A stretch of 64,000 nucleotides of DNA from a virus. The stretch is from the IMG/VR virus record IMGVR_UViG_3300025151_000020, positions 1-64,000 of that record; one strand, given 5' to 3'. Positions within the stretch are counted from its first letter, which is position 1. Each line of letters opens with the position of its first letter. The position numbers and the translations under genes are program-made. Under the pieces are notes generated by a model. That model was not told the DNA's origin. It ran no database searches and saw nothing but the letters and a program-made list of their open reading frames with translations. Of this stretch, positions 930-20,881 are shown piece by piece.

Positions 930-1057
930 GTTTGTTGAATCGGAAAACATGGAAACCGGAATATGCAGATTTAATCTGTGAAGTGTGTTGTGTTCCCCTC
1001 CATGCTCCTGTGTATGAGCGAGCTGACGATTCTCTCGTTTGCTCTCTATGTGCATGA
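926..1057 (+). CDS. small zinc-ribbon protein (43 aa)
   Basis: A 43-residue protein with CEVCC near residue 18 and CSLCA at its very end. This gives two CxxC pairs, about 20 residues apart, forming a minimal zinc ribbon. The start overlaps the previous stop (ATGA) and an AAGGAGGAGG purine tract precedes it, a strong Shine-Dalgarno-like site. The gene ends right at the promoter-like element 1056-1070. One of about a dozen mini zinc proteins in this window; role unknown. Confidence 0.6.
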   Translation: MSLLNRKTWKPEYADLICEVCCVPLHAPVYERADDSLVCSLCA

Positions 1058-1070
1058 GAGTGTTCATAAT
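1056..1070 (+). promoter_or_regulatory. left-arm promoter element GAGAGTGTTCATAAT
   Basis: A full match to the recurrent 15-mer of this arm. The TATA-like core TTCATAAT (1063-1070) ends 25 nt before the ATG at 1096. That is the spacing expected for an archaeal TATA box on a leaderless mRNA. The same 25 nt is found at 9697/9723 and 20574/20600. Confidence 0.6.
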
Positions 1071-1095
1071 GAATCCTCATAGTGACTACAATCTC

Positions 1096-3333
1096 ATGGC
1101 GACAGACATACACCCCGCAGTACCAGACGACACACCCTGGTCTGATGAGCAATTGCAGATTCTGAATGACTTTGCAAATGGTCTTGAGGAGTGGATTCTG
1201 GGCAAGAGGAAATCTGGCCCACGCATGGTTATTCAGGCGGTTGCGGGATCAGGAAAGACGACTGTACTCAAGGCCATGCTGACCATCGTGAGAAAGATAT
1301 GCCCTCATGAGAAGACCCTAGCCTCTGCATTCAATGTCCATATTGCGACATCCCTCAAGGAGGAATTGCTTGAGCAACAGAGAGCAGGTATGTCTGGTGC
1401 GACAATACTTGGTCGCAACAATACCATGAATGCAGGAGGATATCACATCTTGAGATCCGAATCAAAAAGGCAAGGGAAAGTCATGAGCATGGAATCACAA
1501 TCATGCCCAAAGTATCGTGTTCTTTCCAGGCAGGTATGGTCTGAGGAATTAGGTAGAGATGCCTATGAACGAGGATACCAGGGTGGGTTTGATTGGCCTA
1601 TGCTAGATGCAATCAACGATGTATTGCCTAAACCACTATCATTCCGTCAGTTGTGGTACAAAGTCGCCCGTGATCTTGAGAAACTATCAACGGTCTTGCA
1701 GGATGAGGGGTTCGTACCACATCATCCGGTCAATCATCACCACAACAGAGAGGAGATAACGAGGATTGTATCAAGAGTCATGGTCGCACGAGGACTTGAG
1801 GAATCCGTATTGTGGTTGTTCCCTGGAAGCCATGTGCCTATTGACATGGCCTGTGAGGTATTACGCAGAGGGATGACTCATGCATTTGATTCAGAGCATT
1901 TGCTACCGTTCCACTCTGATGAGGAGTTATGCTCAGAGGATGCAATCATACCACGAGCTTCTAATCACCCTGCCACACAAAGCACGAATAGTGAAGGGAG
2001 ATACGATGTTGCATTATACCCTGCATGGAGGATGGAAACGAGAAGGAATCGTGAAACCATCAAGTATTGGTTGAACAAGAGCCAAGTCGTGTGGCCTCCC
2101 ATGAAGGAGGATTACCGTTCTCATACTGTTGAGGCCAACCAACTCGATCAGGTATCATTCTCATTCAGCGATCAGATTTGGTTGCCGTATGCGTTGAATC
2201 TATCCCTTGAGGATGATGCATTTCAGATTGCTTTCATTGATGAAATCCAAGACCTCTCATACACGAAAGGGGAATTGTACAGGAGGCTCTTGACTACTGA
2301 TGGGTCTGCTACTGTTATCCTGGTGGGAGATACCAGGCAAAGCATCATGGGATGGAGTGGGGCAACCCCCGATTCCGTCTTGTTGAATGCAGAAGCATCC
2401 GATTGCAAATTGTATGACATGACCTACTGTTGGAGAGGAGGACATCATGTTGCTAACAATGCAAGAGAGGTCATGGAGAAATCCTCTGATATTATTAGAT
2501 TCAAATATCCAGGGGAAACATTACCTGCATACGAGGAACATCGTAGCCCTGATCATATTGATGGTTGGCATGATGGGAAGAAAGAGATTACAATCACAGA
2601 GGATGAGGTAGCATACCATGTTGAGAGGATCAGAAATGAAGACCCCGATGCATCCATTGCAGTAGTGTCTAGGTTGAATGGTGCATTGTCACCAATCATC
2701 CATCAATTGGTATCAAGAGGAATACCAATAGCCACACCAGATAACAAAGAGATTCTATCCTCGATTGATTGGGTTCTGAACAATGAGGATTCACCGCCAA
2801 AGAATAAGTTTCAGAAATCTGGTCTTGGTTTGAGTAAGCCACAGAACATCAATGGTTATGGTATGAAAAGAAGATGTGCGATGCTTGAGAAGTGGTGTCT
2901 ATCTCAAGCAGAGGACAGAGCAGGTGGTGATGCAGAGGTGGCAAAGATGTCTGATAGATACATCAAGGAGAGAGATGCAATAGACCTAGCTGAATCCTTG
3001 CTCATGTTATACATTGAGAGAAAGACTCAGTTAGTTGAGGCTAAAGCATTCAAGAAGTGGGTATCCGAGGAATTGTTTGGCAACTATGGCAACCCCGTGT
3101 ATCTCACATCCGTTCATAGATTCAAAGGTGCAGAGGCTGATTATGTGTTCCTGTTGCGATCCGTTTCTGCACTCAACAGACAATCACAAACGATTGAATC
3201 ACGAGAGATATTCCTATTGCCCCACCATGTTGGCAATTCATTTGAAACGGCACGAGAGGAATGCAACATCCTCTATGTCGCAACAACAAGGGCGAGGATA
3301 CAGAACATACACGTAAAAGCAGGTGAAAGATAA
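1096..3333 (+). CDS. UvrD/Rep-family superfamily 1 DNA helicase
   Basis: A 745-residue ATP-dependent DNA-unwinding enzyme of the UvrD/PcrA/Rep type (SF1A). Motifs in order: Q-motif-like WSDEQLQIL (residues 15-23), Walker A VAGSGKTT (49-56), Walker B AFIDEIQDLSY, motif III GDTRQSIMGWSGA, motif V TSVHRFKGAEADYVFLL, and motif VI LYVATTRAR near the C-terminus. A long segment of about 300 residues between Walker A and B has no motif I recognise. In-frame starts also exist at 1039 and 1069. I prefer 1096 because it lies exactly 25 nt from the TATA-like element. The stop overlaps the next ATG (TAATG). Likely role: replication or recombination-linked unwinding. Confidence 0.85.
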   Translation: MATDIHPAVPDDTPWSDEQLQILNDFANGLEEWILGKRKSGPRMVIQAVAGSGKTTVLKAMLTIVRKICPHEKTLASAFNVHIATSLKEELLEQQRAGMSGATILGRNNTMNAGGYHILRSESKRQGKVMSMESQSCPKYRVLSRQVWSEELGRDAYERGYQGGFDWPMLDAINDVLPKPLSFRQLWYKVARDLEKLSTVLQDEGFVPHHPVNHHHNREEITRIVSRVMVARGLEESVLWLFPGSHVPIDMACEVLRRGMTHAFDSEHLLPFHSDEELCSEDAIIPRASNHPATQSTNSEGRYDVALYPAWRMETRRNRETIKYWLNKSQVVWPPMKEDYRSHTVEANQLDQVSFSFSDQIWLPYALNLSLEDDAFQIAFIDEIQDLSYTKGELYRRLLTTDGSATVILVGDTRQSIMGWSGATPDSVLLNAEASDCKLYDMTYCWRGGHHVANNAREVMEKSSDIIRFKYPGETLPAYEEHRSPDHIDGWHDGKKEITITEDEVAYHVERIRNEDPDASIAVVSRLNGALSPIIHQLVSRGIPIATPDNKEILSSIDWVLNNEDSPPKNKFQKSGLGLSKPQNINGYGMKRRCAMLEKWCLSQAEDRAGGDAEVAKMSDRYIKERDAIDLAESLLMLYIERKTQLVEAKAFKKWVSEELFGNYGNPVYLTSVHRFKGAEADYVFLLRSVSALNRQSQTIESREIFLLPHHVGNSFETAREECNILYVATTRARIQNIHVKAGER

Positions 3334-3725
3334 TGGCAAGATATGAAGAAATAACATTGAAACAATTTGATGATTTTATGGAGGCTCAAGGCTTTGATAG
3401 AATAGACCAGGATGAGAGAAGGGATATGCATATCCAACAGGGAATCCCGTTTGTGGAATCAGGGGAGCATATCTATGAGATGGACATGGATCAGGACTAC
3501 GCCCCTGGATGTCGCATCAGAATATACTCATCAATCTCCATACGAAAAGGAGAGGGTAGAGGAACAGGTACTGATGCTATTCGAGTGGTAATTGTTGATG
3601 AGAATGGGAAGGTTTGCAACAATTCCTTCAAGAGGGTTCATAGGACAAAGAATTGGCGACTCAATTTACTCAAGCGGTACGAGCCTGTCATTTACAATCC
3701 ACAGGATTACGCACCGATTGAATAG
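3333..3725 (+). CDS. hypothetical protein (130 aa)
   Basis: Not recognised. An N-terminal helix (EEITLKQFDDFMEAQGF) is followed by a beta-rich half with charged strands (GCRIRIYSSISIRKGEGRGTGTDAIRVVIVDENGKV) and a C-terminal RVHRTKNWRLNLLKRYE helix. The layout recalls small phage proteins with an alpha/beta sandwich and a basic face, possibly nucleic-acid binding. It is coupled to the helicase through TAATG, so it belongs to that operon. Confidence 0.6.
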   Translation: MARYEEITLKQFDDFMEAQGFDRIDQDERRDMHIQQGIPFVESGEHIYEMDMDQDYAPGCRIRIYSSISIRKGEGRGTGTDAIRVVIVDENGKVCNNSFKRVHRTKNWRLNLLKRYEPVIYNPQDYAPIE

Positions 3726-3736
3726 GAGATGAAAAT

Positions 3737-3997
3737 ATGGAGATAGAAGAGATAAATGCAACAGACCTTGAAGATGGCACGGAGATATCATACATAGAGA
3801 GGATTTACCTCGCAGATGGAAGGCATCTTCTCATCAATGTTGAAGATTACATCACTACTATGGCTCATCCTCTGAATGGAAGATTGGTCACAGGCCCATC
3901 AACCATCGTGGCCAAACTATTCGCACGATGGGATCATGTCATAGGCCATGAGAACATGGCAGAACACATTACCAGAACTATGGAGGATATTGAATGA
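3737..3997 (+). CDS. hypothetical protein (86 aa)
   Basis: An 86-residue acidic protein of unknown function. Strands alternate with helices (YIERIYLADGRHLLINVEDYITTMAHPL), with no recognisable motif. The ATG at 3737 has a good Shine-Dalgarno-like TAGGAGATG six to ten bases upstream. The stop overlaps the next start (ATGA at 3994), so it shares an operon with the HCD-motif protein. Confidence 0.55.
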   Translation: MEIEEINATDLEDGTEISYIERIYLADGRHLLINVEDYITTMAHPLNGRLVTGPSTIVAKLFARWDHVIGHENMAEHITRTMEDIE

Positions 3998-4497: not shown

Positions 4498-4613
4498 TCA
4501 GGGATACTGTTTCTAAGATAGTGCCTGAGTGGGTAAAGGTCGCATTAGGTATCCTGGGCATGGACATTGACAAGAGTGTTCATAATGAAATGCTATATTC
4601 TGAGGATGAATGA
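4494..4613 (+). CDS. small hypothetical protein (39 aa)
   Basis: Reads MIRDTVSKIVPEWVKVALG and ends MLYSEDE. It starts by ATGA overlap with the upstream gene. A short amphipathic helix is plausible (KIVPEWVKVALGILGMDI). The promoter-like element 4572-4586 lies within its 3' end, so part of its coding sequence may be constrained by the DNA element. Real translation is likely from the coupling but not certain. Confidence 0.4.
   Translation: MIRDTVSKIVPEWVKVALGILGMDIDKSVHNEMLYSEDE
4572..4586 (+). promoter_or_regulatory. left-arm promoter element AAGAGTGTTCATAAT
   Basis: Matches the arm consensus at 14 of 15 positions. The core TTCATAAT (4579-4586) is 23 nt before the ATG at 4610. It sits inside the end of the small gene 4494-4613, showing that the DNA element, not the reading frame, is what is conserved. 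Confidence 0.5.
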
Positions 4614-4702
4614 TAGATAAGCCGAGTTTGAACATATACACAACGACAATTGATTGGGAGATAGCATACATACAAGGAGAGATGTTTCATGGAAGTAATT
4701 GA
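4610..4702 (+). CDS. possible small protein (30 aa)
   Basis: A 30-residue frame (MIDKPSLNIYTTTIDW, ending EMFHGSN) starting 23 nt after a TATA-like core. It overlaps the stop of the preceding gene (ATGA) and the start of the next gene by 14 nt. It may be a genuine small protein or simply the leader of the operon. No motif seen. Confidence 0.3.
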   Translation: MIDKPSLNIYTTTIDWEIAYIQGEMFHGSN

Positions 4703-4829: not shown

Positions 4830-4834
4830 TTGGC

Positions 4835-4948: not shown

Positions 4949-4949
4949 C

Positions 4950-5389: not shown

Positions 5390-5403
5390 AGGTTGTCAAT
5401 CAT

Positions 5404-5418
5404 GAGAGTGGTTAAGAA
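5404..5418 (+). promoter_or_regulatory. possible divergent promoter element before the chaperonin
   Basis: GAGAGTGGTTAAGAA keeps the GAGAGTG half of the arm element but has a changed TATA-like half. It ends 23 nt before the ATG at 5442 and 26 nt before the second in-frame ATG at 5445, close to the spacing of the clear copies. Weak on sequence alone. Confidence 0.3.
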
Positions 5419-5441
5419 GGGTCTGCGTTCTTGCGAGGCAC

Positions 5442-7025
5442 ATGATGACAGGGCCGAATGGAGAACCCATCTATATTTTGAAAGAAGGTGCAAGCAACAG
5501 AAGCGGTAGAAACGCTCAATCGAATAACATAATGGCGGCTAAAGCAGTTGCCGAATCCGTGAGATCCACTCTTGGCCCTCTCGGATTTGATAAAATGCTT
5601 GTTGATGGAGGCGGAGGAGTCCTCATTACTAATGATGGTGCTACCATTTTGACTGAGATAGACGCAGACCATCCTGCCGCAAAAATAGTGATCGAGATAA
5701 GTCAGACCCAGGATGCACAATGTCATGATGGTACGACAAGTGCAGCCGTTCTTTCTGGTGCTTTACTTGAGCAAGCGGAGGAATTGATTGACAAACAAAT
5801 CCATCCAGCAACTATCACAAAAGGATATCACTTCGCAAAGAAAATCCTAATGGAAGAATTAGAAAACATGGGATGGGAATGTTCAGAATCTGACTTGCTT
5901 GATGCAGCTCGCACATCCATTACAGGAAAGAGTGCGGAGTCTGCGATTGATGTTCTTGCAGATATTTGTGTGTCAGCCCTGGATGCTATCAGAGATGATG
6001 ATGGTGTTGATTTGGATAATGTGAAAGTATCAACCTTTGAAGGTGGTTCATATGAGCAGAGTGAATTGCTACCAGGATTGGTAGTTGAGAAAGAGAAGAT
6101 TCACTCACAAATGCCAAGTGCATACAAAGATGCTAAGGTTCTCCTTCTGAAAACTCCTATTGAACCAAAGGAAACTAAGATAGAGTCCAGGTTAAATATT
6201 AACGATCCAAGTATGTTAGAGGCATTCCTAGAGCAAGAAGAACAAGCGATACAGGATTTATGCACCGACATAGCAAAGAGTGGTGCTGATGTTGTGTTCT
6301 GTCAGAAAGATGTGGATGCGTTAGCTGCACACTATCTCTCACAAGCGAACATCATGGTATTGAAGCGTGTCAAGAATAGCGATATGGAGGCACTTCGCAG
6401 GATCACAGGTGCAAACCTCGTAAGCAATCTCAAGGAGTTATTACCAGATGACTTGGGTTCAGCAGAGTCTGTGTTAGAGAAGAAGTTTGGAGAGTACCCC
6501 TGCGTATGTGTTAGCGATAGCAGAGCAAAGAGTGTGACCGCAATTCTGAGAGGAGCAACAGGTCACACCGTTGATGAATTAGAAAGAGCATTCGATGATG
6601 TCATTGGAGTAGTCACCCTATCAGAAGAAAGCAGAATCATGGTTGCTGGCGGAGGTAGTGCCTATGCACACTTGGCTCGTGTTCTAAGAAACAAATCATC
6701 AGATGCACCTGGTCGCCAGGCTATGGCGGTTGAGTCATTCGCCAATGCATTAGAATCAATCCCCTGGACTTTAGCAGAGAATGCAGGTGTTGATCCGGTT
6801 GATGCGATATTAGAGTTGAAAGGAGCAGGGGTGAATGATGGCATATCTATTGATGGTGATGTCAAAGACATGAGAGAACTTTCCGTAGTTGAACCGAGAA
6901 GAATCATTCGTACTGCTATTTCATCTGCCGTTGAAGCATCCACTCTGATTCTAAGAATAGATGATGTGATCTCCATGAAGAAAGTTGGAGGTGACATGAT
7001 GCCTCCTCCGATGATGGGGATGTGA
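5442..7025 (+). CDS. group II chaperonin (thermosome/CCT family)
   Basis: A 527-residue, full-length archaeal-type chaperonin subunit that would form a double-ring ATP-driven protein-folding chamber. Landmarks: [15 protein letters not shown] and [19 protein letters not shown] at the N-terminus, [22 protein letters not shown], the ATPase signature [29 protein letters not shown] in the second equatorial part, [35 protein letters not shown], and [10 protein letters not shown]. The tail MMPPPMMGM is like the Gly/Met-rich tails of thermosomes. The usual GDGTT is HDGTT here: the catalytic Asp is kept and the first Gly replaced by His. The [10 protein letters not shown] region is slightly shortened. 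It is probably made for folding virion proteins or replacing host chaperonin. Related genes are, from memory, reported in viruses of marine euryarchaea. Confidence 0.95.
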
Positions 7026-7303
7026 TAGGATTGCCTACTAAGCAATTGTTTGTTGGCCGGACTAAACGGTTGCGTAGGAAAATCATCAAGTTTCTTGAAG
7101 AGAAAGGTCAAGCAGATACTGCCGATGTCTATGAGTTTCTAAAGCACAACACATATTGGGGTGCATCTCAGAACCAAGTTGGCAACATACTAGCCAAAGA
7201 CCCAAGATTCGTTCTGGTTGGCAATACTCGCAGAGCGATGGGAATGCATTCTCTACAAATCTATCAACTGTCTTCTGATTACAAGGAGTACGAAGAGGCA
7301 TGA
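7022..7303 (+). CDS. small winged-helix-like protein (93 aa)
   Basis: Starts at a GTG overlapping the chaperonin stop (GTGA). Residues 15-75 read as three helices and a wing: RLRRKIIKFLEEKGQADTAD, YEFLKHNTYWGASQNQVGNI and LAKDPRFVLVGNTRRAMG. This fits a winged helix-turn-helix DNA-binding fold like those in archaeal small regulators. Directly behind the chaperonin, it could regulate it or act on virion-stage transcription. Fold assigned by eye. Confidence 0.55.
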   Translation: MIGLPTKQLFVGRTKRLRRKIIKFLEEKGQADTADVYEFLKHNTYWGASQNQVGNILAKDPRFVLVGNTRRAMGMHSLQIYQLSSDYKEYEEA

Positions 7304-7416: not shown

Positions 7417-7655
7417 TGCCCTGGGTCTGTGATCATCCAAGATGTGATCGTGTCACAAAGGGTTTCAGAAACGGAAGGAAACTATGCCATGTTTGTCGAA
7501 TGGCAGAACAACGGCATGAAAGAAGATGGGGGAGGAGATGTACCGAACCAGGTTGTGCTAAACCCATAGCATCTAGTGCAAGCACTTCAATCATCAGATG
7601 TGCTACTTGTGCTAGAAAATCAAGAGAGTGTTCATTAACAGATTCCGATTTGTAA
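7416..7655 (+). CDS. double zinc-knuckle protein (79 aa)
   Basis: Contains CDHPRCDRVTKGFRNGRKLC with CHVC, then CTEPGCAKPIASSASTSIIR with CATCARK. This gives two C-x4-C...C-x2-C knuckles in tandem, separated by an Arg-rich helix (RMAEQRHERRWGRR). Such modules usually bind nucleic acid. I start it at 7416 (TAATG overlap) rather than the in-frame ATG at 7392. A promoter-like element lies in its 3' end. Confidence 0.65.
   Translation: MPWVCDHPRCDRVTKGFRNGRKLCHVCRMAEQRHERRWGRRCTEPGCAKPIASSASTSIIRCATCARKSRECSLTDSDL
7624..7638 (+). promoter_or_regulatory. left-arm promoter element GAGAGTGTTCATTAA
   Basis: Matches the consensus at 12 of 15 bases, with core TTCATTAA (7631-7638). It lies within the end of the preceding coding region. 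The next ATGs are 7659 (20 nt on, a 16-codon frame) and 7709. The promoter may serve 7809-9115. Confidence 0.4.
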
Positions 7656-7708
7656 GGTATGGGAGTCATCACCGTAATGGCATCACAAGAGCTGGGCATA
7701 GGTTCGTG

Positions 7709-7828
7709 ATGGCAGGGGGGGAAGCGACTCCCATAGCGTATGTTTGGCTACGTGCGTTCATTGGCTTCCCTCCCACCATTTTATCAATGATTGAATCAAT
7801 CGAGAGTCATGCCCTTCAAATGTCCTGA
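7709..7828 (+). CDS. possible small protein (39 aa)
   Basis: MAGGEATPIAYVWLRAFIGF followed by PPTILSMIESIESHALQMS. Its middle is moderately hydrophobic. No Shine-Dalgarno-like site is obvious, and it overlaps the well-supported next gene by 20 nt. Region 7656-7808 holds no better candidate. Treat as doubtful. Confidence 0.2.
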   Translation: MAGGEATPIAYVWLRAFIGFPPTILSMIESIESHALQMS

Positions 7829-9367: not shown

Positions 9368-9369
9368 TC

Positions 9370-9682: not shown

Positions 9683-9697
9683 TAATGTGTTCATAAT
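9683..9697 (+). promoter_or_regulatory. left-arm promoter element TAATGTGTTCATAAT
   Basis: In the only true intergenic gap of this part of the arm (9682-9722). The core TTCATAAT (9690-9697) ends exactly 25 nt before the ATG at 9723. This is the clearest case, since no coding sequence overlaps it. Confidence 0.6.
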
Positions 9698-9722: not shown

Positions 9723-10040
9723 ATGACTGACTACAAGCAGAAAGCATATGCTCGTGAGAGGGCATTTAGATTACTCTCACATCCCTGGTTTGAGATGATT
9801 GCTGAGATCAGGGCAGAAAGAAGTGCTTTGCTCAATGCACCGGAATATCAAGAGATGGCGGGCGTTGAGAAAGCAGAGAGATTGAACATCATGGATTCCA
9901 GGCTAAAGATAGCCCAGGATTGGGTGCATCACTACGAGGCTGAAAGGATCGCTACCGCAGGTATCCGTATGAGGAAATGGCTAAGAGAAGCCATGACATT
10001 ATCAGATGCAGAGCTAGGTCTAACAGGAGAGGGAATGTGA
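9723..10040 (+). CDS. helical hypothetical protein (105 aa)
   Basis: First gene after a promoter-like element, with its ATG where a leaderless start is expected. It is almost all helix and charged (YKQKAYARERAFRLLSHPWF, AERLNIMDSRLKIAQDW, RIATAGIRMRKWLREAM), so probably a coiled-coil dimer. Unknown function. The stop overlaps the next ATG (TGATG). Confidence 0.55.
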   Translation: MTDYKQKAYARERAFRLLSHPWFEMIAEIRAERSALLNAPEYQEMAGVEKAERLNIMDSRLKIAQDWVHHYEAERIATAGIRMRKWLREAMTLSDAELGLTGEGM

Positions 10041-10723: not shown

Positions 10724-11020
10724 GTGCCACGCACACATGACTACAACAACAAAGTGCATGATGAAATAGAAACATCATGTCATCTTGGTGAATGCCTTCA
10801 TGTAGTCACTTCAAATGCTTTTGATAGCAGAGTCTTGAATCTGAGAATGTTTCGTGTTCAGCCGTCTAAGACGGGTCATACAGGATATACTAAGATTGGA
10901 TTCTTTCTTTCCAGGGATGAAGCACGACAACTCAGAGATTCATTGTCAGAAGTTGTTGAGGATGAGAATGCCTGGGATACAGACATTAGAGATACACTCA
11001 TTGACATGGAGGATGTTTGA
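10724..11020 (+). CDS. hypothetical protein (98 aa), weak resemblance to PC4-like fold
   Basis: GTG start; no in-frame ATG is available. The middle reads strand-strand-strand-helix: SRVLNLRMFRVQPS, GYTKIGFFLSRDEARQLRDSL, then an acidic tail. The order of strands followed by 'LSRDEARQLRDSL' recalls PC4/YdbC-like ssDNA-binding proteins, but the match is only general. The stop overlaps the next ATG (TGATG). Confidence 0.45.
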   Translation: MPRTHDYNNKVHDEIETSCHLGECLHVVTSNAFDSRVLNLRMFRVQPSKTGHTGYTKIGFFLSRDEARQLRDSLSEVVEDENAWDTDIRDTLIDMEDV

Positions 11021-11580
11021 TGCCAAGATGGGAAACTTATGATGACTTCATGTACGAATACATGACTTTGGCACACGATATCTGTAAGAGATGTATCATT
11101 ACCGATCCAATAGCAATTGGCAATTTTGCTTTTGATTTGTGGAATCATGCAAAGGAGTTTGCATCTCGATCTCACACTACTCTCTTGTTTGATTGCGTTT
11201 ATATCGTTGGAAATGCCACAGGAAATAAGGTTTCGATTCCTTTACTCCAAAGCATTTCTTCGGATTTACTAGACGGAAGGAGAATCAAGGCAATGGCATC
11301 TTACGAGAAAACCGATAAGTGGTTTCTCACACCAAAAGGAAAGCAAGCAATCATGGAAATCTTATCAGGAGATGAGGATTTGTTCAATGATGTTGCGAGT
11401 GCATGGATTGATGGCAAGACTGTAAATATGTCTGGAGAACAAAGCGATTATTGGTGTGAGCCATGTGGTGTTAGAAGCATAAGTGGGCAAGAGCGTTTAG
11501 ACCTCATCAATGAAACGACTAAACCCATACTGATGTGTCCAGGTTGTAAGAAATGGGAATGGGATGAACGGAGTGTTTGA
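11020..11580 (+). CDS. zinc-ribbon hypothetical protein (186 aa)
   Basis: ATG at 11020 overlaps the previous stop. Mostly helical for 140 residues, with a possible winged-helix-like segment (KTDKWFLTPKGKQAIMEIL). It ends in a zinc ribbon with CEPCGVRSI and CPGCKKWEW, 33 residues apart. Helices plus a terminal ribbon could be a transcription-factor-like arrangement. I do not recognise the family. Its stop overlaps the TTG start of the ligase-like gene. Confidence 0.55.
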   Translation: MPRWETYDDFMYEYMTLAHDICKRCIITDPIAIGNFAFDLWNHAKEFASRSHTTLLFDCVYIVGNATGNKVSIPLLQSISSDLLDGRRIKAMASYEKTDKWFLTPKGKQAIMEILSGDEDLFNDVASAWIDGKTVNMSGEQSDYWCEPCGVRSISGQERLDLINETTKPILMCPGCKKWEWDERSV

Positions 11581-13025
11581 CTTTGCTATCATACCGATCA
11601 CTTGCAGAATCTTGGCGAGTCATGGCCACATACAAGTTAAGGAATCGTGGCGAGATAGTTGCTAACAATCTTAGAGCTGCACCAGGAGATGCTTGGTCTG
11701 TAATATCATTCTTCTACCCTATGAGTTATCACAATGACAGGTTGAGCGATGAAGACTTGAGGGAGATTTACTTCTTGCTTACAGGTGCATTTCCAGAGGA
11801 GATAGAAAAGAATGCAGATCCCATTCAACAACTCACTATGCTTTCTGAAACACCGAGCACAACAGGGTCTGCAAAGAGCGTATCTGATCGCATATCAAAG
11901 ATATTAGAGGCAGATGATAATGAAGTGAGGTCTTGGTTGATTAGACCCTTGTTTGAAAGAATTAACAGTCGTGATCTTCATCCTTTCTTCATGAGGCTAA
12001 GTGTCCGTTCAGCTCCTGTTAGAAGGAGAGATGTCATTTCGGCATTGGCTTTGGCTTACGAGCAACCCTATCATCATGTTAGGACATCTGTGAATCTATT
12101 AGGTTTGAGAAACACATTGAATGATTTATCTCTTCATTCCTTTGATTACACGAAGGTTAGACCTATTCTTGGTGAATCAATGGTCATACCCACACCAACC
12201 CTGGTTGAGTCCTCTAATGTTGTTGCATTTACCAAGTGCCTTCTTGAAACAGTTGAAGGTGCGTGGGTGACTATTCATCGTATGCAGAACAAGACAATTG
12301 GATTCACCGCTTCTGGTAATGAATTGCCCGATGATGATGATTGGATACATAATTGGGCTAACATAATCAATCTCCAGGAAGGAATATATCTCTGTGATTA
12401 TGCAGAGATGCGAGATAACCCTTTGTTGTTGGTAGATTGGCTAAACCCAGATGATCCGAAAATGACTCTTGCAAAACGCAGAGATAGATTCAATGGCATA
12501 TCTGAATGGGCAATCAAACCCATGATTGCTTTAGACAGACCATATGATAGTGAGAAATACCAAGATACAGGGTTGCCTTTCTTGATCAGGAATGCTAGAG
12601 GCATATTGACATATCAGAACACCGTTGAAGAAGTGGTCCTGTTGAATCCTGTGTCTAAGCATAGGATACTTCGAGTATTGTCTGGGCGTGTTCATCAGAA
12701 TCTAAGTCAGAGCGATACATTGTTTGTACTTTGGAAGTTGGGTGTTCGTGATGGATATGATTACTTCCCAATAGTTGAGATGCCTTCTGGTGAATTAGAA
12801 GATATTGATTTCAAACAATACTGTTCGCCCTGGAAATGGTTGCCAGGAGAAGCAATAAAAATAGAGAATCCTTTGTTCGTAAAGGTGGATATCATGACTT
12901 CTGGTTGGGGGGAAGTTGGAGCATATGTCAATGGCAGAATTGTGGGCATAGATGGTAGTGCGGGGATCGCAGACACAATGGGTGTGGAGGAGATAGGCTA
13001 TGTCGGGGATTCTCAATCAGGATGA
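11577..13025 (+). CDS. divergent ATP-dependent DNA ligase-like protein, catalytic lysine motif not found
   Basis: A 482-residue protein with the plan of an archaeal DNA ligase. The helical N-terminal domain ends in ALALAYEQPYHHVRTSVN and LLG. A central part has VRPILGESM (compare 'RPMLA'), GAWVTIHRMQNKTIGFTASG (compare the GxRxQIHK...LFSR segment), and MTLAKRRDRFNG. A C-terminal OB-like part includes YDYFPIVEMPSG. In true ligases the segment before 'GxRxQIH' is KxDG with the adenylated Lys. Here it reads ETVEGAWV, with no Lys. Either the enzyme is inactive and structural, or my alignment is off. TTG start by TTGA overlap; the ATG at 11622 is an alternative. Confidence 0.45.
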   Translation: MTLLSYRSLAESWRVMATYKLRNRGEIVANNLRAAPGDAWSVISFFYPMSYHNDRLSDEDLREIYFLLTGAFPEEIEKNADPIQQLTMLSETPSTTGSAKSVSDRISKILEADDNEVRSWLIRPLFERINSRDLHPFFMRLSVRSAPVRRRDVISALALAYEQPYHHVRTSVNLLGLRNTLNDLSLHSFDYTKVRPILGESMVIPTPTLVESSNVVAFTKCLLETVEGAWVTIHRMQNKTIGFTASGNELPDDDDWIHNWANIINLQEGIYLCDYAEMRDNPLLLVDWLNPDDPKMTLAKRRDRFNGISEWAIKPMIALDRPYDSEKYQDTGLPFLIRNARGILTYQNTVEEVVLLNPVSKHRILRVLSGRVHQNLSQSDTLFVLWKLGVRDGYDYFPIVEMPSGELEDIDFKQYCSPWKWLPGEAIKIENPLFVKVDIMTSGWGEVGAYVNGRIVGIDGSAGIADTMGVEEIGYVGDSQSG

Positions 13026-13419
13026 TAGAGATATCATAATCTTAGCCTCATTGATTAGGGGCAAGATTCGTTGTGAGAGAACACGGGAAAGAAAATGTGG
13101 TTATCTCATTAGGGCGGAGTTGGGAATACCAACTATGAAGGATGGAGCTAGTCGTGCATTGGAAAGTCATGGATTACCTGTTAGGCTAACATACACGGAC
13201 ACCATTGAGATCACAAAAATACTGAACATGATAAATGGCCTGGAAGACCTATCAAAAACTACTGATGATTTGTTTCTAGTCAAAAAACTCAATGGAGTGT
13301 TGAAACAACCACGAACTCACAAAGAGGTTCTATCTGCCCTTGAGTTGATTCAAGAGTATGAGAGTGTTCATAACCCAAACCACACTCCCACAAAGCCCAA
13401 AAGAATGGAGAGTGAATGA
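13000..13419 (+). CDS. hypothetical protein (139 aa)
   Basis: Overlaps the ligase-like gene by 26 nt. Mostly helical with a basic first half (SLIRGKIRCERTRERKCGYL) and helices LSKTTDDLFLVKKLNGVLKQ and TRTHKE-like EVLSALELIQEYES. No family recognised. A promoter-like element lies within its last 60 nt, so the end of the gene may be shaped by it. Confidence 0.5.
   Translation: MSGILNQDDRDIIILASLIRGKIRCERTRERKCGYLIRAELGIPTMKDGASRALESHGLPVRLTYTDTIEITKILNMINGLEDLSKTTDDLFLVKKLNGVLKQPRTHKEVLSALELIQEYESVHNPNHTPTKPKRMESE
13360..13374 (+). promoter_or_regulatory. left-arm promoter element GAGAGTGTTCATAAC
   Basis: Matches the arm consensus at 14 of 15 bases; core TTCATAAC at 13367-13374. The next long gene starts at 13423, 48 nt on, so this copy would give an mRNA with a leader of about 20 nt containing GGAGAGTGA. 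It precedes the recombination/methylation/primase operon. Confidence 0.5.
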
Positions 13420-13422: not shown

Positions 13423-14754
13423 ATGGCAGATGCATTGAAGAGATTGGAAGATGAAATGGGGTGGACACCTCAAGAAACGGTAGAGAAACTACATGAGTGG
13501 TGGAAGGAGGTGAATCCAGAAGAGTTCGCCCGCTATGATGGTGACTTCTCAAAGATAGAAGATGAGAGCGAAACAGAATGGATACTTTCAGGCTTTGAAT
13601 CCACATGGAGGAGAAGAGGCACGGCAAGCGGACCAGGTGACAGATATGTTGGATTCGTTATCGGATACAACGGGCAACAGGATCTAATGGGAAGGCAGAG
13701 AGAGAAGGCAATTGAAGCAATTCAATTTCATGGCATTGATTCAGTATTGAAGAATGGAATACAACCATACCAGGATGATCGAGTAGTGAGAATTGGCCGT
13801 GCAGGATATGTAGAAGGTGCATGGAGAGTCTTTGACGCAACTGATCGTGAGATATACACAGATGAGGGTGATGAGTCTGAATTACCAAAGTGGGCTATTG
13901 CAGTACCTGGTCAGAAATACTTCCTTGCAATCATGGGAGGGGCTAAAGGACCAAAGACGGCATACTCTTACAAGAAGAATTGGCTAGTCGTGGCTAACAA
14001 AGAATCTGATTTCTTTAGCAAAGGTCCATCAGCACCTATGACTCTTGAATGCTCATGGGATGCGGCAGACCTTGACCTAAGAATGAATGAGCCAATTTCT
14101 TTTACGGCAGAAGAAGGTACTGCATTCTATGATGAGTCAGTAAAGATTCTGAAAGCGGGTGGTGGTCTTAATCCAACATATGGTTTAGAGCAATTCTCTG
14201 ATGAGCAGAAGCCTCTGTTTGAGCAACTAACAATTGATCAAGTATTGGCACAGTTTGCAAACTTCCAACCTGATCTATCATTGATTCAAGAATACCATGA
14301 AGACAACAAGACCACACTTGCAAGTGGCCGTGATGTCGGACCGATATTCGCCATGAGAGGTGTAGTGGATTACATGGATTATGATGGAAAGGACAACATC
14401 AAGTTCGGCTTATCCGCAGAAGGAGGAGCTCAGCACAAGTTGGCAATATACAGTCAAAGTCTTAGAAATGAGAATCCAGATGCATCGGTGTGGATATCCG
14501 TATCAAGGACACTCATTGAGAAGCACCATGCCTTCCAGGTAAAGAAGAATGGAGAGTGGTATGATTTCGTAAAGCCAACTCAAGTATTCATTGTAGTAAG
14601 GTCAAGGACATGGCAGAACAACGATGGCGATACTAACTATGACTACGATGCATTGAATGTAGTCGCACCATACCCCAACAGATCATCAATAGCACAAACA
14701 ACAACAGAAGATGCAAACGATATGGGGAGTCTAGGCAATTTCAGAGGTGATTAG
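13423..14754 (+). CDS. putative ssDNA-binding (RPA-like) protein
   Basis: A 443-residue protein placed directly before a Sak4/RecA-like ATPase and a RecB-like nuclease, where viruses often keep their ssDNA-binding protein. It starts with a helical segment (ALKRLEDEMGWTPQETVEKL). It continues as beta-rich blocks that could be OB folds: DRYVGFVIGYNGQQDLMG, and near residue 305 GPIFAMRGVVDYMDYDGKDN followed by FGLSAEGG. The C-terminal 40 residues are acidic and disordered, as is usual for proteins that recruit partners. The fold assignment is inferred from layout and context, not from a clear signature. Confidence 0.4.
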   Translation: MADALKRLEDEMGWTPQETVEKLHEWWKEVNPEEFARYDGDFSKIEDESETEWILSGFESTWRRRGTASGPGDRYVGFVIGYNGQQDLMGRQREKAIEAIQFHGIDSVLKNGIQPYQDDRVVRIGRAGYVEGAWRVFDATDREIYTDEGDESELPKWAIAVPGQKYFLAIMGGAKGPKTAYSYKKNWLVVANKESDFFSKGPSAPMTLECSWDAADLDLRMNEPISFTAEEGTAFYDESVKILKAGGGLNPTYGLEQFSDEQKPLFEQLTIDQVLAQFANFQPDLSLIQEYHEDNKTTLASGRDVGPIFAMRGVVDYMDYDGKDNIKFGLSAEGGAQHKLAIYSQSLRNENPDASVWISVSRTLIEKHHAFQVKKNGEWYDFVKPTQVFIVVRSRTWQNNDGDTNYDYDALNVVAPYPNRSSIAQTTTEDANDMGSLGNFRGD

Positions 14755-14756
14755 GG

Positions 14757-16345: not shown

Positions 16346-17342
16346 TTCTTATCCTATTCCAATTGAGGAGTACAAAGGATATCAGTCATCATACGGATGG
16401 TGGCCAGGCTCGCCCACGAACATTTTGCCAAGATTCACTAAATCATCGGTTGGAGCTTCCAACTTCTGCCCTCAACAGTATTTCATCAAATACCCGCTAG
16501 GAGTAAAGGAACCAGAAAATGACAACATGATTAGAGGAACTAATGTCCATGATGCAGTAGAGCAATTCTATCATGATGTTGATTTGGATGTCATTGATGA
16601 ATTGAATGGTGTTGGAAATGATTTGCATGAAATGCATAATTATTTCATGAGCATAATACCCAACATGGATCGTTATGAGTTAGGAGAAGAAGAACACATT
16701 CGAAAGTACCTCTTGGCAGAGGCTATGAGGGCGATGGATTGTGATCTTGATTTGTTTCTTCCTGTTGGTAATGAGATTACATTACACGGAGTAGTTGAGA
16801 TTCAAGATCAAAAAATACACATTACAGGCATGATTGATAGGCTCTTTGTTGATAACGAAGGCAGATATCATGTTCATGAGTTGAAGACGGGTGTGTTCAA
16901 TCCTAAGAAGGACAGAAAGTGGGAGCATATGCGTCAAGAGTTGGCTTACTATGTATTTCTGATGAAGCATTGTGATAACAAGTTGTATGACCGAGATAAC
17001 AATGTAATTGGGGAATTGCCACTATCAGATGCCAATGTCGCTTGGTGGGGATGGGATCACACAGGAGGCGAGGGAATATACAGAGGCAAGGAATCTGTTC
17101 GGACCAGGGAGATGGCACTTATGCTTAGGAGTTTAGAAGACCTTCTAAGATATCATAGGAATTACAATGGAGATACAGACGGCATTCAATTCCCATTGTT
17201 GCATCCAAACAAAACTAACTTTCTCTGCGAACCCTGGTGTGCCTTGAAGGGATTCTGCCCCCGTTATGATAAGCCACTCATGCCTTACAACGCCAGAGTG
17301 TTCAAAAGCGAAAGCCTGTCTGAGGGAGGTGAGAGTGGATGA
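16317..17342 (+). CDS. PD-(D/E)XK nuclease of the Cas4/RecB/AddB iron-sulfur type
   Basis: A 341-residue nuclease. Catalytic residues in family order: H78 in GTNVHDAVE, D174 in GMIDRLF, E188 and K190 in HELKTG, and Q207 in MRQELAYYVF. Four cysteines frame the domain: C51 in FCPQQYF, then C304, C308 and C314 in CEPWCALKGFC. This is the pattern that binds a 4Fe-4S cluster in Cas4 and AddB. It would trim DNA ends for recombination alongside the ATPase and ssDNA-binding protein. It overlaps the ATPase by 29 nt and the methyltransferase by 4 nt. Confidence 0.8.
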   Translation: MVLKLRFPRNSYPIPIEEYKGYQSSYGWWPGSPTNILPRFTKSSVGASNFCPQQYFIKYPLGVKEPENDNMIRGTNVHDAVEQFYHDVDLDVIDELNGVGNDLHEMHNYFMSIIPNMDRYELGEEEHIRKYLLAEAMRAMDCDLDLFLPVGNEITLHGVVEIQDQKIHITGMIDRLFVDNEGRYHVHELKTGVFNPKKDRKWEHMRQELAYYVFLMKHCDNKLYDRDNNVIGELPLSDANVAWWGWDHTGGEGIYRGKESVRTREMALMLRSLEDLLRYHRNYNGDTDGIQFPLLHPNKTNFLCEPWCALKGFCPRYDKPLMPYNARVFKSESLSEGGESG

Positions 17343-19438
17343 AGTATGTCAGTCTGTTTGCAGGAATTGAAGCCGCATCACAAGCATGGCACGTACTTGG
17401 ATGGCAACCATTGGCATTCGCAGACATTGACAGATTTCCCTCTGCCGTGCTTGCACATCATTATCCCGATGTGCCAAATGTTGGAAATGTAGAGGAGGTA
17501 GATTGGAGTGAGTACAAAGGAAAAGCAGATCTCGTTGTCGGAGGAAGCCCATGTCAGTCGTTTTCCGTTGCGGGAAAAAGACTCGGAATGGATGACCCTC
17601 GTGGTAACTTGGCCCTCGAATACCTCAGAGCTGTTAAGGAGATTCAACCGACGTGGTTCGTCTTTGAAAATGTGCCAGGACTTTTGTCATCTGAGGGGGG
17701 ATCGGACTTTGGTAAGTTCCTCGGAGAGGTGGCAAGTATCGGGTATGGGTTCGCCTGGAGAGTTTTGGACTCTCAATTCTTCGGAGTGCCGCAAAGACGT
17801 AGAAGACTCTTTGTTGTCGGACATATTGGAGGAGATTGGCGAAGTGCCGCAGCGGTATTATTTGAGTCCGAGAGCTTGCAATGGCATACTGAGGAGAGCA
17901 CAGAGGAGGGGCAAAGCCTTGCCGCCTTCTTTGGAAGCGGCTTTGCAGGAGAGAGCGAAGCATTACCAGGAGGAGGAGGAGTAAGTGAATCCTCACAAGA
18001 GAATTGGGATGGAACACAAAAAACAGGCACTCTAACTACAAGAAGCCTAGATCAATCCATGCCCGATAAATCAAACTTCATGGGCATTGTTGAGCGTGAT
18101 CTGCATGAACCAGATAATATCTTTGAAAGTTCAAAGAGTCGTAAGGACTTGAGTCCTCCATTAGATGCAAGAGATCAGGGCAGTACAGGCAAACCTGTAC
18201 TTACAGAGAGAGTCATACCAATTCATGATAAGGCCACTCGATACAAGGGTGGCGGAGATACTAGAAACAATGATGGTGCAGGTAATGGATTAGGAATCGG
18301 CAAAGATGGCGATCCAATGCCGACATTAGACACGGCATCAAATCATGCCGTAGCCCAAGCAGTTGATGTTTGGAATCAAGTCATAGACGGAGAAAAGGCC
18401 GCCACTTTAACAGAGGCATCTGGCGGAACTAACACATCTGGTCCAAAGGTCATGACTACATTTCGTAAATCAAGAAGGGCACAAAGCACGGAAGATAACG
18501 AAACATGGGTTGAAGATGAAGTCAGCAATACTCTAAACACATTTGACATAGGAGATGCGAGAACTACTCAGATTATACAAGAACCAATTGCCTTTGAGCA
18601 GAATCAAAGATCCGAGATTAGAGAACTTGGCACGAAATCAACATCTCTCAAGGCACAACCAGGCACTAACCAACAGACATTCATTGCACATGGAGAACAA
18701 ACTCCGTTGCATGGCGAGGATGTATCTCCAACTTTGGATGCGAGTTATGGGAAGGGACCAGGAGAAAGAGCAGGTATTGAAAGACAAGTCATTGGGGAAG
18801 TCATAGGATTCTCTCATACTCAAGGTCTTGATGCTCAACCATCAACAGAGCATTTTCCCACTCTGAGAGCCGAAGGCCAGGGTCATGCTATTGGTTTTGA
18901 TTGGAAAAATACGGGGCAGACTAATTTTTCAGAATCAAATACAGGAGCTCCTTTGACGGCAGAAGGGGGTCTTGCAGTTGGCATCGATCAACAAGTGTAT
19001 GAGAATCACCCATCTGATGGCAGAATCAACGAAGTGCATACTAGCCCCACCATAACTGCAAAGGCGGGTACGGGCGGGGGAAATCTCCCATTGGTAAAAG
19101 AAAACGAGGTAGCACCCACATTAACGGCAAGAGATATGTACGATGGTCAAGCAAGTCACACGGTTCAGCAACAACACATGGCAGTTAGGAGGCTGACTCC
19201 TCTTGAGTGTGAGAGGTTACAGGGTTTCCCTGATAATTACACTAAGATACCATACAGAGGCAAACCTGCTGAGAAATGCCCCGATGGTCCGAGATACAAA
19301 GCACTAGGCAATTCAATGGCAGTACCTGTTATGAGATGGATAGGGGAGGGCATACAACAGGTAGATGAGATTCTTCAAACATTAGAAGAAAGACCAGAGC
19401 CTCAAGAAGTCATCCAAAAATCTATTTTTGATTTCTGA
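17339..19438 (+). CDS. DNA (cytosine-5) methyltransferase with a 450-residue repeat-rich insertion
   Basis: A 699-residue C5-cytosine methyltransferase. Motif I SLFAGIEAA (5-13), motif IV GGSPCQSFS with catalytic C72, motif VI ENVPGL (110-115), motif VIII QRRRRLFVVGH (152-162), motif IX RRLTPLECERLQGF (617 on) and motif X GNSMAVPV (657-664). Between VIII and IX, where a target-recognition domain belongs, lie about 450 residues carrying around ten degenerate repeats of the form 'PTL-A--G'. No restriction endonuclease is adjacent, so it probably protects viral DNA from host restriction or marks it for packaging or regulation. ATGA overlap with the nuclease gene. Confidence 0.92.
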   Translation: MKYVSLFAGIEAASQAWHVLGWQPLAFADIDRFPSAVLAHHYPDVPNVGNVEEVDWSEYKGKADLVVGGSPCQSFSVAGKRLGMDDPRGNLALEYLRAVKEIQPTWFVFENVPGLLSSEGGSDFGKFLGEVASIGYGFAWRVLDSQFFGVPQRRRRLFVVGHIGGDWRSAAAVLFESESLQWHTEESTEEGQSLAAFFGSGFAGESEALPGGGGVSESSQENWDGTQKTGTLTTRSLDQSMPDKSNFMGIVERDLHEPDNIFESSKSRKDLSPPLDARDQGSTGKPVLTERVIPIHDKATRYKGGGDTRNNDGAGNGLGIGKDGDPMPTLDTASNHAVAQAVDVWNQVIDGEKAATLTEASGGTNTSGPKVMTTFRKSRRAQSTEDNETWVEDEVSNTLNTFDIGDARTTQIIQEPIAFEQNQRSEIRELGTKSTSLKAQPGTNQQTFIAHGEQTPLHGEDVSPTLDASYGKGPGERAGIERQVIGEVIGFSHTQGLDAQPSTEHFPTLRAEGQGHAIGFDWKNTGQTNFSESNTGAPLTAEGGLAVGIDQQVYENHPSDGRINEVHTSPTITAKAGTGGGNLPLVKENEVAPTLTARDMYDGQASHTVQQQHMAVRRLTPLECERLQGFPDNYTKIPYRGKPAEKCPDGPRYKALGNSMAVPVMRWIGEGIQQVDEILQTLEERPEPQEVIQKSIFDF
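18140..19165 (+). repeat. degenerate protein repeats within the methyltransferase
   Basis: About ten copies of a motif around 'SPTLDA-xx-G' at 25-60 residue spacing: SPPLDARDQG, MPTLDTASN, AATLTEASGG, SNTLNTFDIG, TSLKAQPG, SPTLDASYGK, FPTLRAEGQG, APLTAEGG, SPTITAKAG, APTLTARD. The DNA copies differ widely, so these are old protein repeats rather than recent duplications. Confidence 0.7.
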
Positions 19439-19447
19439 GGTGAATAC

Positions 19448-20548
19448 ATGGGGCATCTGTTCAATGACTTCCCTCGTGAAATTGACATGAAGGCAAGAAA
19501 GGTCATCAGAAACATGAAACAATTGCAGAGATATGTTGAGAAGACAAATGGTCGAGATAATCTCACAACTACTGTATATGGTTTCAGAGATCTCAAGACG
19601 AAGGGCAATCGTTGTGAGTATAGCACCGCAATCATACCTCACTTCGTAGTTGATTTGGATAAGGGCAGAGCTAGTGAGATACTAGACATGGATGGAGATG
19701 CAGGTGGCCAACGATGCACAGATGATACCTTGATTCTAGTCAGATACCTGGAAGAAAGAGAAATACGCCATGCTACTTGGATGAGTGGCGGAGGATATCA
19801 TGTATGGATTATGTTAGATCAGGTGTACAACTTAGAGCCTAGAGATACCAATGACCTGTTATTCTCTGGTCGTGCGATGATTAACAAGTGGATTAACGAC
19901 ATGAGTTTAGTCACGATAGATCCTGTTGTTTCTTTCCGCCCTGATCGTCACATAAGGATACCAAACACATACAACACAAAGAGAGAGTTATGGAGCATAC
20001 CTGTTGATTCAGATGATTTAGAAAAGGGTTGGAAGTATATCACAGACAAAGCAAAGAATCCATCTGGTGGTATGAAAGTAAAGGGCAAAAAGGGTTTGAA
20101 GATTGATATTGTTGAGAGCGACCCAGGCAATCAGTATATGTCAAGTATGACAGGATTTTTCGGGAAGTTTGAGGCGGCGGAAATATCTGTATCGTCAAGG
20201 AACATAGCAGGTATTCCGATGTTGCCATGTCTTGATGCGGCTTGTTGCACCAAAGGAGATAACCCCCCTCATTTGCCTCGTTCCTATCTGTCCATGTATC
20301 TCTTGGATTACTTTCACAACTTTGCAAGACCTCGAAGCTCAAGCAAAGTAAAGCCGTATGATGCAGTTGCAAAGGCTCATGCTTTCATCCGTGATTTGGA
20401 ATGGGCTGACTACAACCCTAAGATTACTCAAGAGCAATTGATTCATGCATCAAGCCGTGAATATCTCACACCCACCTGCCCCACTATATTTAGACAAGGA
20501 CTGTGTATTGGGAGATGTCCATTTTACGATCAGAAGGGAGTGAAATGA
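19448..20548 (+). CDS. archaeo-eukaryotic primase with PriL-like C-terminal Cys domain
   Basis: A 366-residue replicative primase. The catalytic PriS-like half shows HFVVDLDKG with the metal-binding DLD (69-71), SGGGYHVWI (113-121), and DPVVSFRPDRHIRIPNTYN with D158 and the basic nucleotide-binding end. The C-terminal 110 residues resemble the iron-sulfur domain of PriL: C261 in MLPCLDAACC, then C344, C353 and C357 in TPTCPTIFRQGLCIGRCPFY, separated by helices and DYFHNFAR. The two subunits of archaeal primase thus seem merged in one chain. Start supported by GAGGTGA upstream. It would prime DNA synthesis with the helicase at 21689. Confidence 0.82.
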   Translation: MGHLFNDFPREIDMKARKVIRNMKQLQRYVEKTNGRDNLTTTVYGFRDLKTKGNRCEYSTAIIPHFVVDLDKGRASEILDMDGDAGGQRCTDDTLILVRYLEEREIRHATWMSGGGYHVWIMLDQVYNLEPRDTNDLLFSGRAMINKWINDMSLVTIDPVVSFRPDRHIRIPNTYNTKRELWSIPVDSDDLEKGWKYITDKAKNPSGGMKVKGKKGLKIDIVESDPGNQYMSSMTGFFGKFEAAEISVSSRNIAGIPMLPCLDAACCTKGDNPPHLPRSYLSMYLLDYFHNFARPRSSSKVKPYDAVAKAHAFIRDLEWADYNPKITQEQLIHASSREYLTPTCPTIFRQGLCIGRCPFYDQKGVK

Positions 20549-20559
20549 TGCTCATGAGA

Positions 20560-20574
20560 AAGAGTATTCATAAT
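20560..20574 (+). promoter_or_regulatory. left-arm promoter element AAGAGTATTCATAAT
   Basis: Matches the arm consensus at 13 of 15 bases. The core TTCATAAT (20567-20574) ends exactly 25 nt before the ATG at 20600. It overlaps a possible 23-codon frame at 20545-20616, which I regard as non-coding. It opens the last operon of the arm. Confidence 0.55.
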
Positions 20575-20599
20575 GAAAGCGTTAGTGTGGAGGCTTACT

Positions 20600-20881
20600 A
20601 TGACAGAGGACATTGAGGAGATCAGGAAACAAAGACAGTTGAAACTTGCTCAAACTCTGAGTAAATTGGATGGAAACGATGAATCCGAGCGTAAGGAAGT
20701 ATTGGATTCATTACCCTGGTCTTTTCGTTATAACACTAATACAGGGTTCTGCGAAATATTGCAACAAGGCAACATGGTTGCCATCACTCAAGATGAGAAG
20801 TTTGCCGATCAGGTATGCGAGGTTTTCAATCGTATGACATTGATTAGCGAATACACGGAGGGATTAGATGACAATCAATAA
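20600..20881 (+). CDS. small hypothetical protein (93 aa)
   Basis: Start at 20600 chosen by its 25-nt distance from the TATA-like core; an in-frame ATG at 20573 lies inside the element. Helical N-terminus (EDIEEIRKQRQLKLAQTLSK), then a compact half with FRYNTNTGFCEILQQGNMVA and a helix KFADQVCEVFNRM. Not recognised. First gene of the operon with the ERCC4 nuclease and AAA+ helicase. Confidence 0.5.
   Translation: MTEDIEEIRKQRQLKLAQTLSKLDGNDESERKEVLDSLPWSFRYNTNTGFCEILQQGNMVAITQDEKFADQVCEVFNRMTLISEYTEGLDDNQ

Follow-up and report, generated by a model that had tools for sequence, protein, structure and literature searches.

We examined a window of 64,000 nt, bases 1-64,000 of the 93,310-base IMG/VR record IMGVR_UViG_3300025151_000020 (named G000 in comparisons), and found that a 15-bp element composed of GAGAGTG and TTCATAAT recurs along its left arm. 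With a probability of roughly 0.87, its sequence features suggest that it is the core promoter of an early class of left-arm genes, with a B recognition element (BRE) followed by a TATA box. The left arm encodes, on the + strand, a UvrD-type helicase, a thermosome, a PD-(D/E)XK nuclease, a C5 methylase and an ERCC4 nuclease; the right arm, on the - strand, encodes a capsid and tape-measure-like proteins. A search of candidate viral contigs gave 148 relatives of the capsid, and the named viruses nearest by capsid are Druskaviridae haloviruses (~33%). Because this layout and kinship fit the ICTV description of magroviruses (PMC12999244), G000 looks like a magrovirus, a virus of marine Poseidoniales. 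Metagenomes have so far been the sole source of knowledge of magroviruses (PMC12999244), which are described as ubiquitous in the surface ocean in the available part of PMC10160649. Below, G-numbers denote virus records, with L160 and L165 standing for G046, L161 and L164 for G047, L177 for G049 and L159 for G045. G045 is a 99% strain of G000 and G047 is close to G002, so the lineage rows are not all independent.

A recurrent element at probable left-arm unit starts

Seven copies of the element lie in the left arm, all on the + strand, at 1056, 4572, 5404, 7624, 9683, 13360 and 20560, and they sit at the inferred starts of left-arm units; these coordinates, first listed in an initial annotation of the window, all hold. 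The copy before the helicase operon (1056-1070, GAGAGTGTTCATAAT) is the sole exact one, with 0 mismatches to the 15-mer, and its orthologs lie 24 nt before the start codon in G002 (4218) and 25 nt before it in G046 (L165:4767). One mismatch is found in each of the copies at 4572-4586 (AAGAGTGTTCATAAT) and 13360-13374 (GAGAGTGTTCATAAC); the former has orthologs with a 23-nt gap in G002, G046 and G047, and the latter, which lies inside the 3' end of an open reading frame (ORF) at 13000-13419, has orthologs with gaps of 43-48 nt in G002, G046, G047 and G049. Two mismatches are found at 7624-7638 (GAGAGTGTTCATTAA), where relatives have GAGAGTGTTCAATAA (G002, G047) or GAGAGTGTATAATAA (G046, by eye), and at 20560-20574 (AAGAGTATTCATAAT), where G002, G046 and G047 have AAGAGTGTTCATAAT with a gap of 23 nt. 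The copy at 9683-9697 (TAATGTGTTCATAAT) has three mismatches; TAAYGTGTTCATAAC stands in its place in G002, G046 and G047, and the canonical GAGAGTGTTCATAGC in G049. The copy before the thermosome operon (5404-5418, GAGAGTGGTTAAGAA), initially annotated as weaker, proved real: it joins GAGAGTG to GTTAAGAA, with TTAAG in its TATA half, and precedes the thermosome ATG at 5442 by 23 nt, and three close relatives (G002, G046 and G047) carry GAGAATGATTAAAGG, which joins GAGAATG to ATTAAAGG, at the same place and spacing. The element is conserved as DNA, as had been proposed, in that the copy at 13360 codes for ESVHN, the copy at 7624 is read in another frame and the copy at 1056 overlaps a stop codon.

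Enrichment over shuffled sequence, which had been named beforehand as a test, was borne out at all three thresholds that we applied. At up to one mismatch there are three matches, compared with 0.007 in dinucleotide shuffles; at up to two, five matches, compared with a mean of 0.24 and a largest value of 3 in 300 approximate dinucleotide shuffles; and at up to three, eight matches in the window, compared with 3.09 expected, a count reached by 2 of 100 shuffles. Two matches with three mismatches, at 5875 and 17294, were set aside because they are coding and lack the spacing; the match at 17294 recurs in relatives, again without the spacing. A matrix of 18 sites, which contains the scored G000 sites and is thus partly circular, gave scores of 16.5-25.6 to six G000 sites and at most 12.0 to the rest of the 93.3-kb record on either strand, which agrees with the earlier claim that the right arm has no copy in either orientation. 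The bare 7-mer GAGAGTG is common: it occurs exactly 18 times in the record, and the right arm holds 11 of these occurrences. The element did not emerge from a de novo search for enriched 10-mers, whose top words came mostly from the right arm, and an 8-mer/position test gave nothing for G000 and TGAGGCTT in G035 and G037.

Presence at orthologous operon starts of related viruses, also named beforehand as a test, was found in the close relatives wherever contigs reach. The element stands at orthologous starts in G002, whose helicase and thermosome are 51% and 74% identical to those of G000, and at the same sites in G046 (L160, L165), G047 (L161, L164), G049 (L177) and strain G045 (L159). Across 49 virus records, 20 of the 37 matches at up to two mismatches fall in the six records of this clade, 14 in 40 others and 3 in records picked by motif. 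When candidate viral contigs were searched for the element followed after 22-26 nt by ATG, 12 stretches were returned, four of which belong to the clade (L169, L170, L177 and L179); the other eight are taken as chance.

The spacing to the following gene was tabulated for 26 site-lineage cases, in which an ATG was counted if it opens an ORF of at least 25 aa. Genes of the leaderless type have their ATG 22-25 nt downstream of the element in 21 of 21 cases (near-duplicate lineages included), some with a second ATG nearby at 16, 26, 27 or 42 nt, and a 443-aa gene with a Shine-Dalgarno-like leader has its ATG at 43-48 nt in 5 of 5. The gaps reported initially, 25 nt (ATG at 1096, 9723 and 20600) and 23 nt (4610), are correct. 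The broader claim that copies mark operon starts at leaderless spacing stands for five sites and fails for two, namely 13360, where the gap is 48 nt, and 7624, which precedes a structured RNA and no ORF. Messages from the former sites would be leaderless, a label that does not apply at 13360.

Sequence comparison supports the starts at 4610, 9723 and 20600 well, the first two through orthologs and the third through an N-terminus in G046. The 29-aa ORF at 4610-4699 (MIDKPSLNIYTTTIDW...) and its orthologs have TTTI(D/E)W and the 23-nt gap in common (4 of 4, G000 included), and the first gene of the 9683 operon (9723-10040, MTDYKQKAYARER...) has a gap of 25 nt, with 22-23 nt in orthologs. The gene MTEDIEEIRK... 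(20600-20881) is placed at 20600 instead of 20573, and MTEDIDEIRK of G046 starts at the equivalent ATG, 23 nt past its element; at this site the ATG of G002 and G047 begins an ORF, MSDELEHW..., other than that of G000 and G046. Two corrected starts had been proposed, and the G046 N-terminus sustains the one at 20600; the other, at 1096 for the UvrD-type helicase (1096-3333, Pfam UvrD-helicase), is supported mainly by its 25-nt spacing, and the N-termini of relatives vary in length. The thermosome gene (5442-7025, Pfam Cpn60_TCP1, E 1.2e-149) and the 443-aa gene (13423-14754, with a GGAG Shine-Dalgarno-like leader and an element gap of 48 nt) lie on the + strand, as do all of these genes.

At site 7624 no ORF lies at the expected distance, and a structured non-coding RNA with a covarying terminal stem is predicted instead (7658-7735, + strand). 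The fold of 7655-7745 has a z of -5.7 relative to shuffles. The terminal stem, which begins 19 nt past the element in all four of G000, G002, G047 and G046, differs in sequence among them yet pairs, with 6 of 10 pairs changed on both sides, as counted with stem arms delimited by eye, one changed pair present in two sequences only, and G002 and G047 near each other. The 18-site matrix missed the G046 copy before this RNA, which was identified by reading. No Rfam family matched the RNA at gathering thresholds, and a strict stem and G-tract scan did not find it in 13 other record sets, some of them partial. The RNA also contains GCUGGGCA and a G-tract able to pair with a C-rich stretch downstream; this pairing is at best slightly above shuffles in G000, G047 and G046 and falls below the best shuffle in G002.

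The two halves of the element and their versions elsewhere

The initial annotation read TTCATAAT as a TATA box and GAGAGTG as a BRE-like or regulator-binding half, and the TATA/BRE assignment is supported because the TTCATAAT half is exchanged for plain TATA boxes at two sites while GAGA(G/A)TG stays. At the thermosome site described above the replacement is TTAAGAA/TTAAAG, and at the pre-RNA site in G046, which reads GAGAGTG-TATAATAA, it is TATAATAA. A TATA box joined to a class-specific BRE-like half would explain most of this pattern. A purine-rich BRE lies directly upstream of the TATA box, as GAGAGTG in the clade (TAATGTG at one site), as mostly GTGAG-type sequences in distant lineages and as GGCGGG in G003.

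In the mechanism that we propose, TTCATAAT would be the TATA box bound by TATA-binding protein (TBP), and GAGAGTG, directly upstream at the position where TFB contacts the BRE, would confer the identity of the promoter class. In the first round at least, TTCATAAT and GAGAGTG would most probably be bound by the TBP and TFB of the host, and RNA polymerase would start ~19-25 nt downstream of the element; in archaeal core promoters an AT-rich TATA box stands about 25 nt ahead of the transcription start. Most first genes would be read from leaderless or nearly leaderless messages and one from a message with a short Shine-Dalgarno-like leader, and one unit would make the structured RNA. We infer transcription from these sites, its start sites, a factor that binds GAGAGTG and early timing, the last because of the restriction to the left arm and the gene content there. 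The class had been described earlier as one for replication genes; the promoter part of that description stands, and the regulon appears wider, as it includes the thermosome and the structured RNA.

GAGAGTG could instead be bound by an activator or repressor that the virus encodes, other than TFB, at a site overlapping an ordinary host-type TATA promoter, which we consider possible if somewhat unlikely. A conserved promoter-like site in the right arm shares the TATA core (TTCATATAC) and lacks GAGAGTG, which speaks for this alternative, and the thermosome operon offers a candidate regulator, a DUF3860 protein (7022-7303, + strand) that may be a winged-helix DNA-binding protein (Pfam 5.6e-12; PDB 2od5, E 3e-6; model mean pLDDT 74) and is represented by orthologs in 6 of the 12 other long records. 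However, GAGAGTG adjoins the TATA box without a spacer, at the BRE position, and its drift in distant lineages is shared with the TATA half, unlike that of a separate site.

A promoter-like sequence, CTGTCATGTTGTCATTCATATAC, is conserved on the - strand at L004:1951-1990 (record ~64,951-64,990, beyond the window), 24 nt before the second ATG of the gene that ends there, which probably starts at MANAEM. The right-arm site at 64950 reads TTCATATA in three of the four relatives listed and TTGATATA in the fourth. Single conserved sites of this kind exist in the right arm, where no shared element was found; CTGTCATGTTGTCA was rejected as a repeated motif.

We also compared more distant viruses, as left-arm orthologs are present in eleven other long records beside G002. 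A BRE-TATA was recognised by eye at the thermosome start in seven of nine (G003, G015, G017, G020, G029, G036 and G037; not clear in G019 and G022), at the 9723 ortholog in five of eight (G003, G015, G017, G035 and G037; none in G019, G020 and G029) and in L167, and at the 443-aa gene in seven of ten (G003, G015, G017, G020, G029, G035 and G037; none in G019, G022 and G032), again with L167. These distant versions, found at three of the five sites compared, are genome-specific and mostly consist of a GTGAG-type BRE and a TATA box. Elements resemble one another more within a genome than the same site does between genomes: their distance averages 3.33 of 16 within genomes (n=18 pairs) and 6.12 (n=64) at the same site between genomes, a difference reached in 0 of 2000 label shuffles. 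A generic GTGAG-TATA-ATG pattern gave 28 matches in 13 virus sets compared with 1 when reversed, and 2 compared with 0 in 400 kb of host DNA; it gave 0 in G002, G003, G019, G022 and G032. In HVTV-1, the nearest named virus by capsid, the first 49 kb held one match at up to two mismatches and no visible shared element. Among 145 genomes of the host order, the 15-mer at up to one mismatch had 31 matches, none exact, compared with 34 for the reversed control. The promoter class had been called virus-specific, which agrees with this chance level in hosts, and the exact sequence is limited to one clade. Profiling of host promoters by the first ATG was too noisy.

A TFB-like protein and other genes

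Downstream of the element at 9683, in what we read as one operon with it, lies a gene (11020-11580, + strand) for a TFIIB/TFB-like protein with a single cyclin box and a C-terminal zinc ribbon, as indicated by profiles, a structure model and orthologs. The likeness emerged through relatives: no match to TFIIB was found among G000 proteins, and when 14 virus records were searched for TFIIB, three gave a match (E 9e-5 to 7e-4), all of them sub-threshold and all falling on the ortholog of this gene; the remaining 11 records, among them G000, gave none. The gene has orthologs in L167, G046, G047 and G049 and in 11 of 12 other long records, G036 being the one in which none was seen, and W41, R50, D58, C59, Y61, G68 and two further positions are invariant in sixteen sequences. 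In the profile comparison with PDB the five top-ranking matches are all TFIIB (E 0.011-0.039), and the next is RsfS (0.14). Confidence in the AlphaFold model is high for the helical core (blocks within 11-90 at pLDDT of at least 90). Judged by their descriptions, cyclin-box proteins make up 49 of the 50 Foldseek rows shown and all 50 VIA rows shown. Structural matches include cyclins, Rb, TFIIB, Brf1 and the P. woesei TFB on BRE-TATA (1d3u; Z 9.3, rmsd 3.5, 102 aligned), a Z that helical bundles can reach by chance, and the best Foldseek E was 0.057, with none at 0.001.

The protein resembles archaeal and eukaryotic TFB/TFIIB (PF00382) in its predicted cyclin-box fold, the box resembling TFIIB repeat 1, and in its linked zinc ribbon. 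Those proteins have two boxes and an N-terminal ribbon, whereas the 186-aa viral protein has one box, with the ribbon at the C-terminus or in a separate ORF, and stays below the Pfam TFIIB cut-off: of the 16 members, 5 gave a match at E up to 1, the best of them at 0.0013. Because of the single box and the Pfam result, we do not class it as a TFB. In G046 a separate ORF (L165:13120-13284) upstream of the cyclin-box gene matches the CxxC...CxxC ribbon of G000 with 44% identity across 39 residues; the ribbon is fused in G000 and G049 and split in G046. A comparison with host TFBs by hhalign gave only 20.9%. Four TFIIB repeats were counted in 29 of 40 genomes of the host order, which would fit a pair of TFBs; both were read in one genome.

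This protein might itself read the BRE half, with the lineage-specific promoter versions following from it. Magroviruses would then use their own early-operon TFB-like factor, with its ribbon fused or split, on a private BRE, and would redirect transcription after a first round driven by host TFB. We regard this as doubtful. The single cyclin-box model, the TFIIB profile matches at the top of the PDB search, the wide orthologs and the zinc ribbon speak for it, as does the likeness of promoter versions within genomes. The sub-threshold Pfam scores, the lack of a TFIIB match for the G000 protein itself, the one box, the low hhalign identity and the modest Foldseek E speak against it, and a protein that is itself made early would depend, for the first round, on host TFB working at these promoters too. 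The available part of PMC5569661 considers it likely that archaeal viruses make use of the TBP and TFB of their hosts. If the proposal were true, the promoter version would turn over genome-wide in concert, with factor and BRE coevolving, and archaea would harbour a virus-encoded general initiation factor.

Elsewhere in the record, three very large proteins (2595, 2187 and 3212 aa) are encoded on the - strand at 26717-58391 of the window, and one of 59 scanned proteins matched HMGL-like (PF00682), taken from the sequence as ORF L005:13590-14495 (record ~91.6-92.5 kb, - strand), which is unusual in a virus.

Weighing the promoter reading and its meaning

The element could also be a translation signal, in which a Shine-Dalgarno sequence and a start codon (TTCATAATG) would place ATGs at 1069, 4585 and 20573. 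Three G000 copies do continue with a G that yields ATG, and GAGAGTG occurs near other starts (17331). However, 19 of the 26 tabulated copies lack such a G, protein likeness starts at the downstream ATG and one copy precedes an RNA gene, which makes this alternative very improbable. That the copies are chance repeats, or repeats with another role (origin, packaging or recombination site), would suit an element that is short and degenerate and only modestly above chance at up to three mismatches; it is scarcely credible, since the element occupies orthologous positions in fixed orientation and at fixed spacing.

Several observations weigh against the BRE-TATA promoter reading. TTCATAAT differs from a textbook TATA box, and GAGAGTG is not invariant: at 9683 the upstream half changes to TAATGTG or TAACGTG and TTCATAA is kept in four of five lineages, with the canonical form in G049. 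The unit starts were inferred in part from the elements themselves. Purines resembling a Shine-Dalgarno sequence lie near the ATG of some leaderless-type genes (4610, 20600 and L165 7909), where they would fall outside a leaderless message. No BRE-TATA was seen upstream of the distant orthologs of the helicase and of the 20600 gene (five and four rows shown; G032 without a start). The 14 isolated matches outside the clade, in 40 records, compare with one reversed-control match. The 21 elements in the distance comparison, from 8 lineages, were picked by eye, with G002, G029, G036 and rows that show no element omitted, a choice that can raise the likeness within genomes. Evidence on host promoters is thin, with TTAAATAG in 2 of 11 host tRNA rows and four pre-selected TATA-like cases in 226 host genes (three TTAAAT and one TTTATATG before GTG).

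Viral early genes that have a BRE-TATA promoter in common are already known, as the available parts of PMC11065993 and PMC8707807 describe. According to the former, a BRE-TATA regulatory sequence marks early genes of the rudivirus SIRV2 and other archaeal viruses. SIRV2 resembles G000 in a near-identical core promoter at many early genes of one genome, a purine-rich BRE upstream of the TATA box and a surrounding consensus that varies between viruses (PMC11065993). In contrast, the SIRV2 promoters serve mostly single anti-defence genes, and their TATA and BRE are found in housekeeping genes of the host as well (PMC11065993, available part). The element described here belongs to a tailed virus and precedes replication operons, a structured RNA and a chaperonin, and the 15-mer is at chance level in the hosts searched. 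Halovirus HF2 likewise has intergenic repeats with AT-rich or TATA-like motifs whose place and orientation are kept among related viruses; in the accessible text of PMC8707807 these repeats measure 58 and 29 bp, compared with 15 bp here, and are promoters proven by reporter assays, whereas the present element is known from sequence. G000 shares with such viral early-promoter repeats the occurrence of one element at several units of a genome and at orthologous places in relatives.

As far as the literature was searched, the magrovirus promoter set, its turnover between lineages, the covarying RNA and the TFB-like gene are new. Our searches, whose coverage excluded most subscription papers, found nothing on promoters of Poseidoniales, marine group II or magroviruses and nothing on cyclin-box or TFIIB-like proteins of archaeal viruses or magroviruses; the word "promoter" is not present in the text of PMC10160649. 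With the promoter defined, operon maps and corrected gene starts can be read straight off the sequence, early and late units become easier to tell apart, and attention is drawn to a new structured RNA. Furthermore, as promoter versions turn over between lineages beside a TFB-like gene that is widely conserved, one can test whether viruses of archaea supply an initiation factor of their own.

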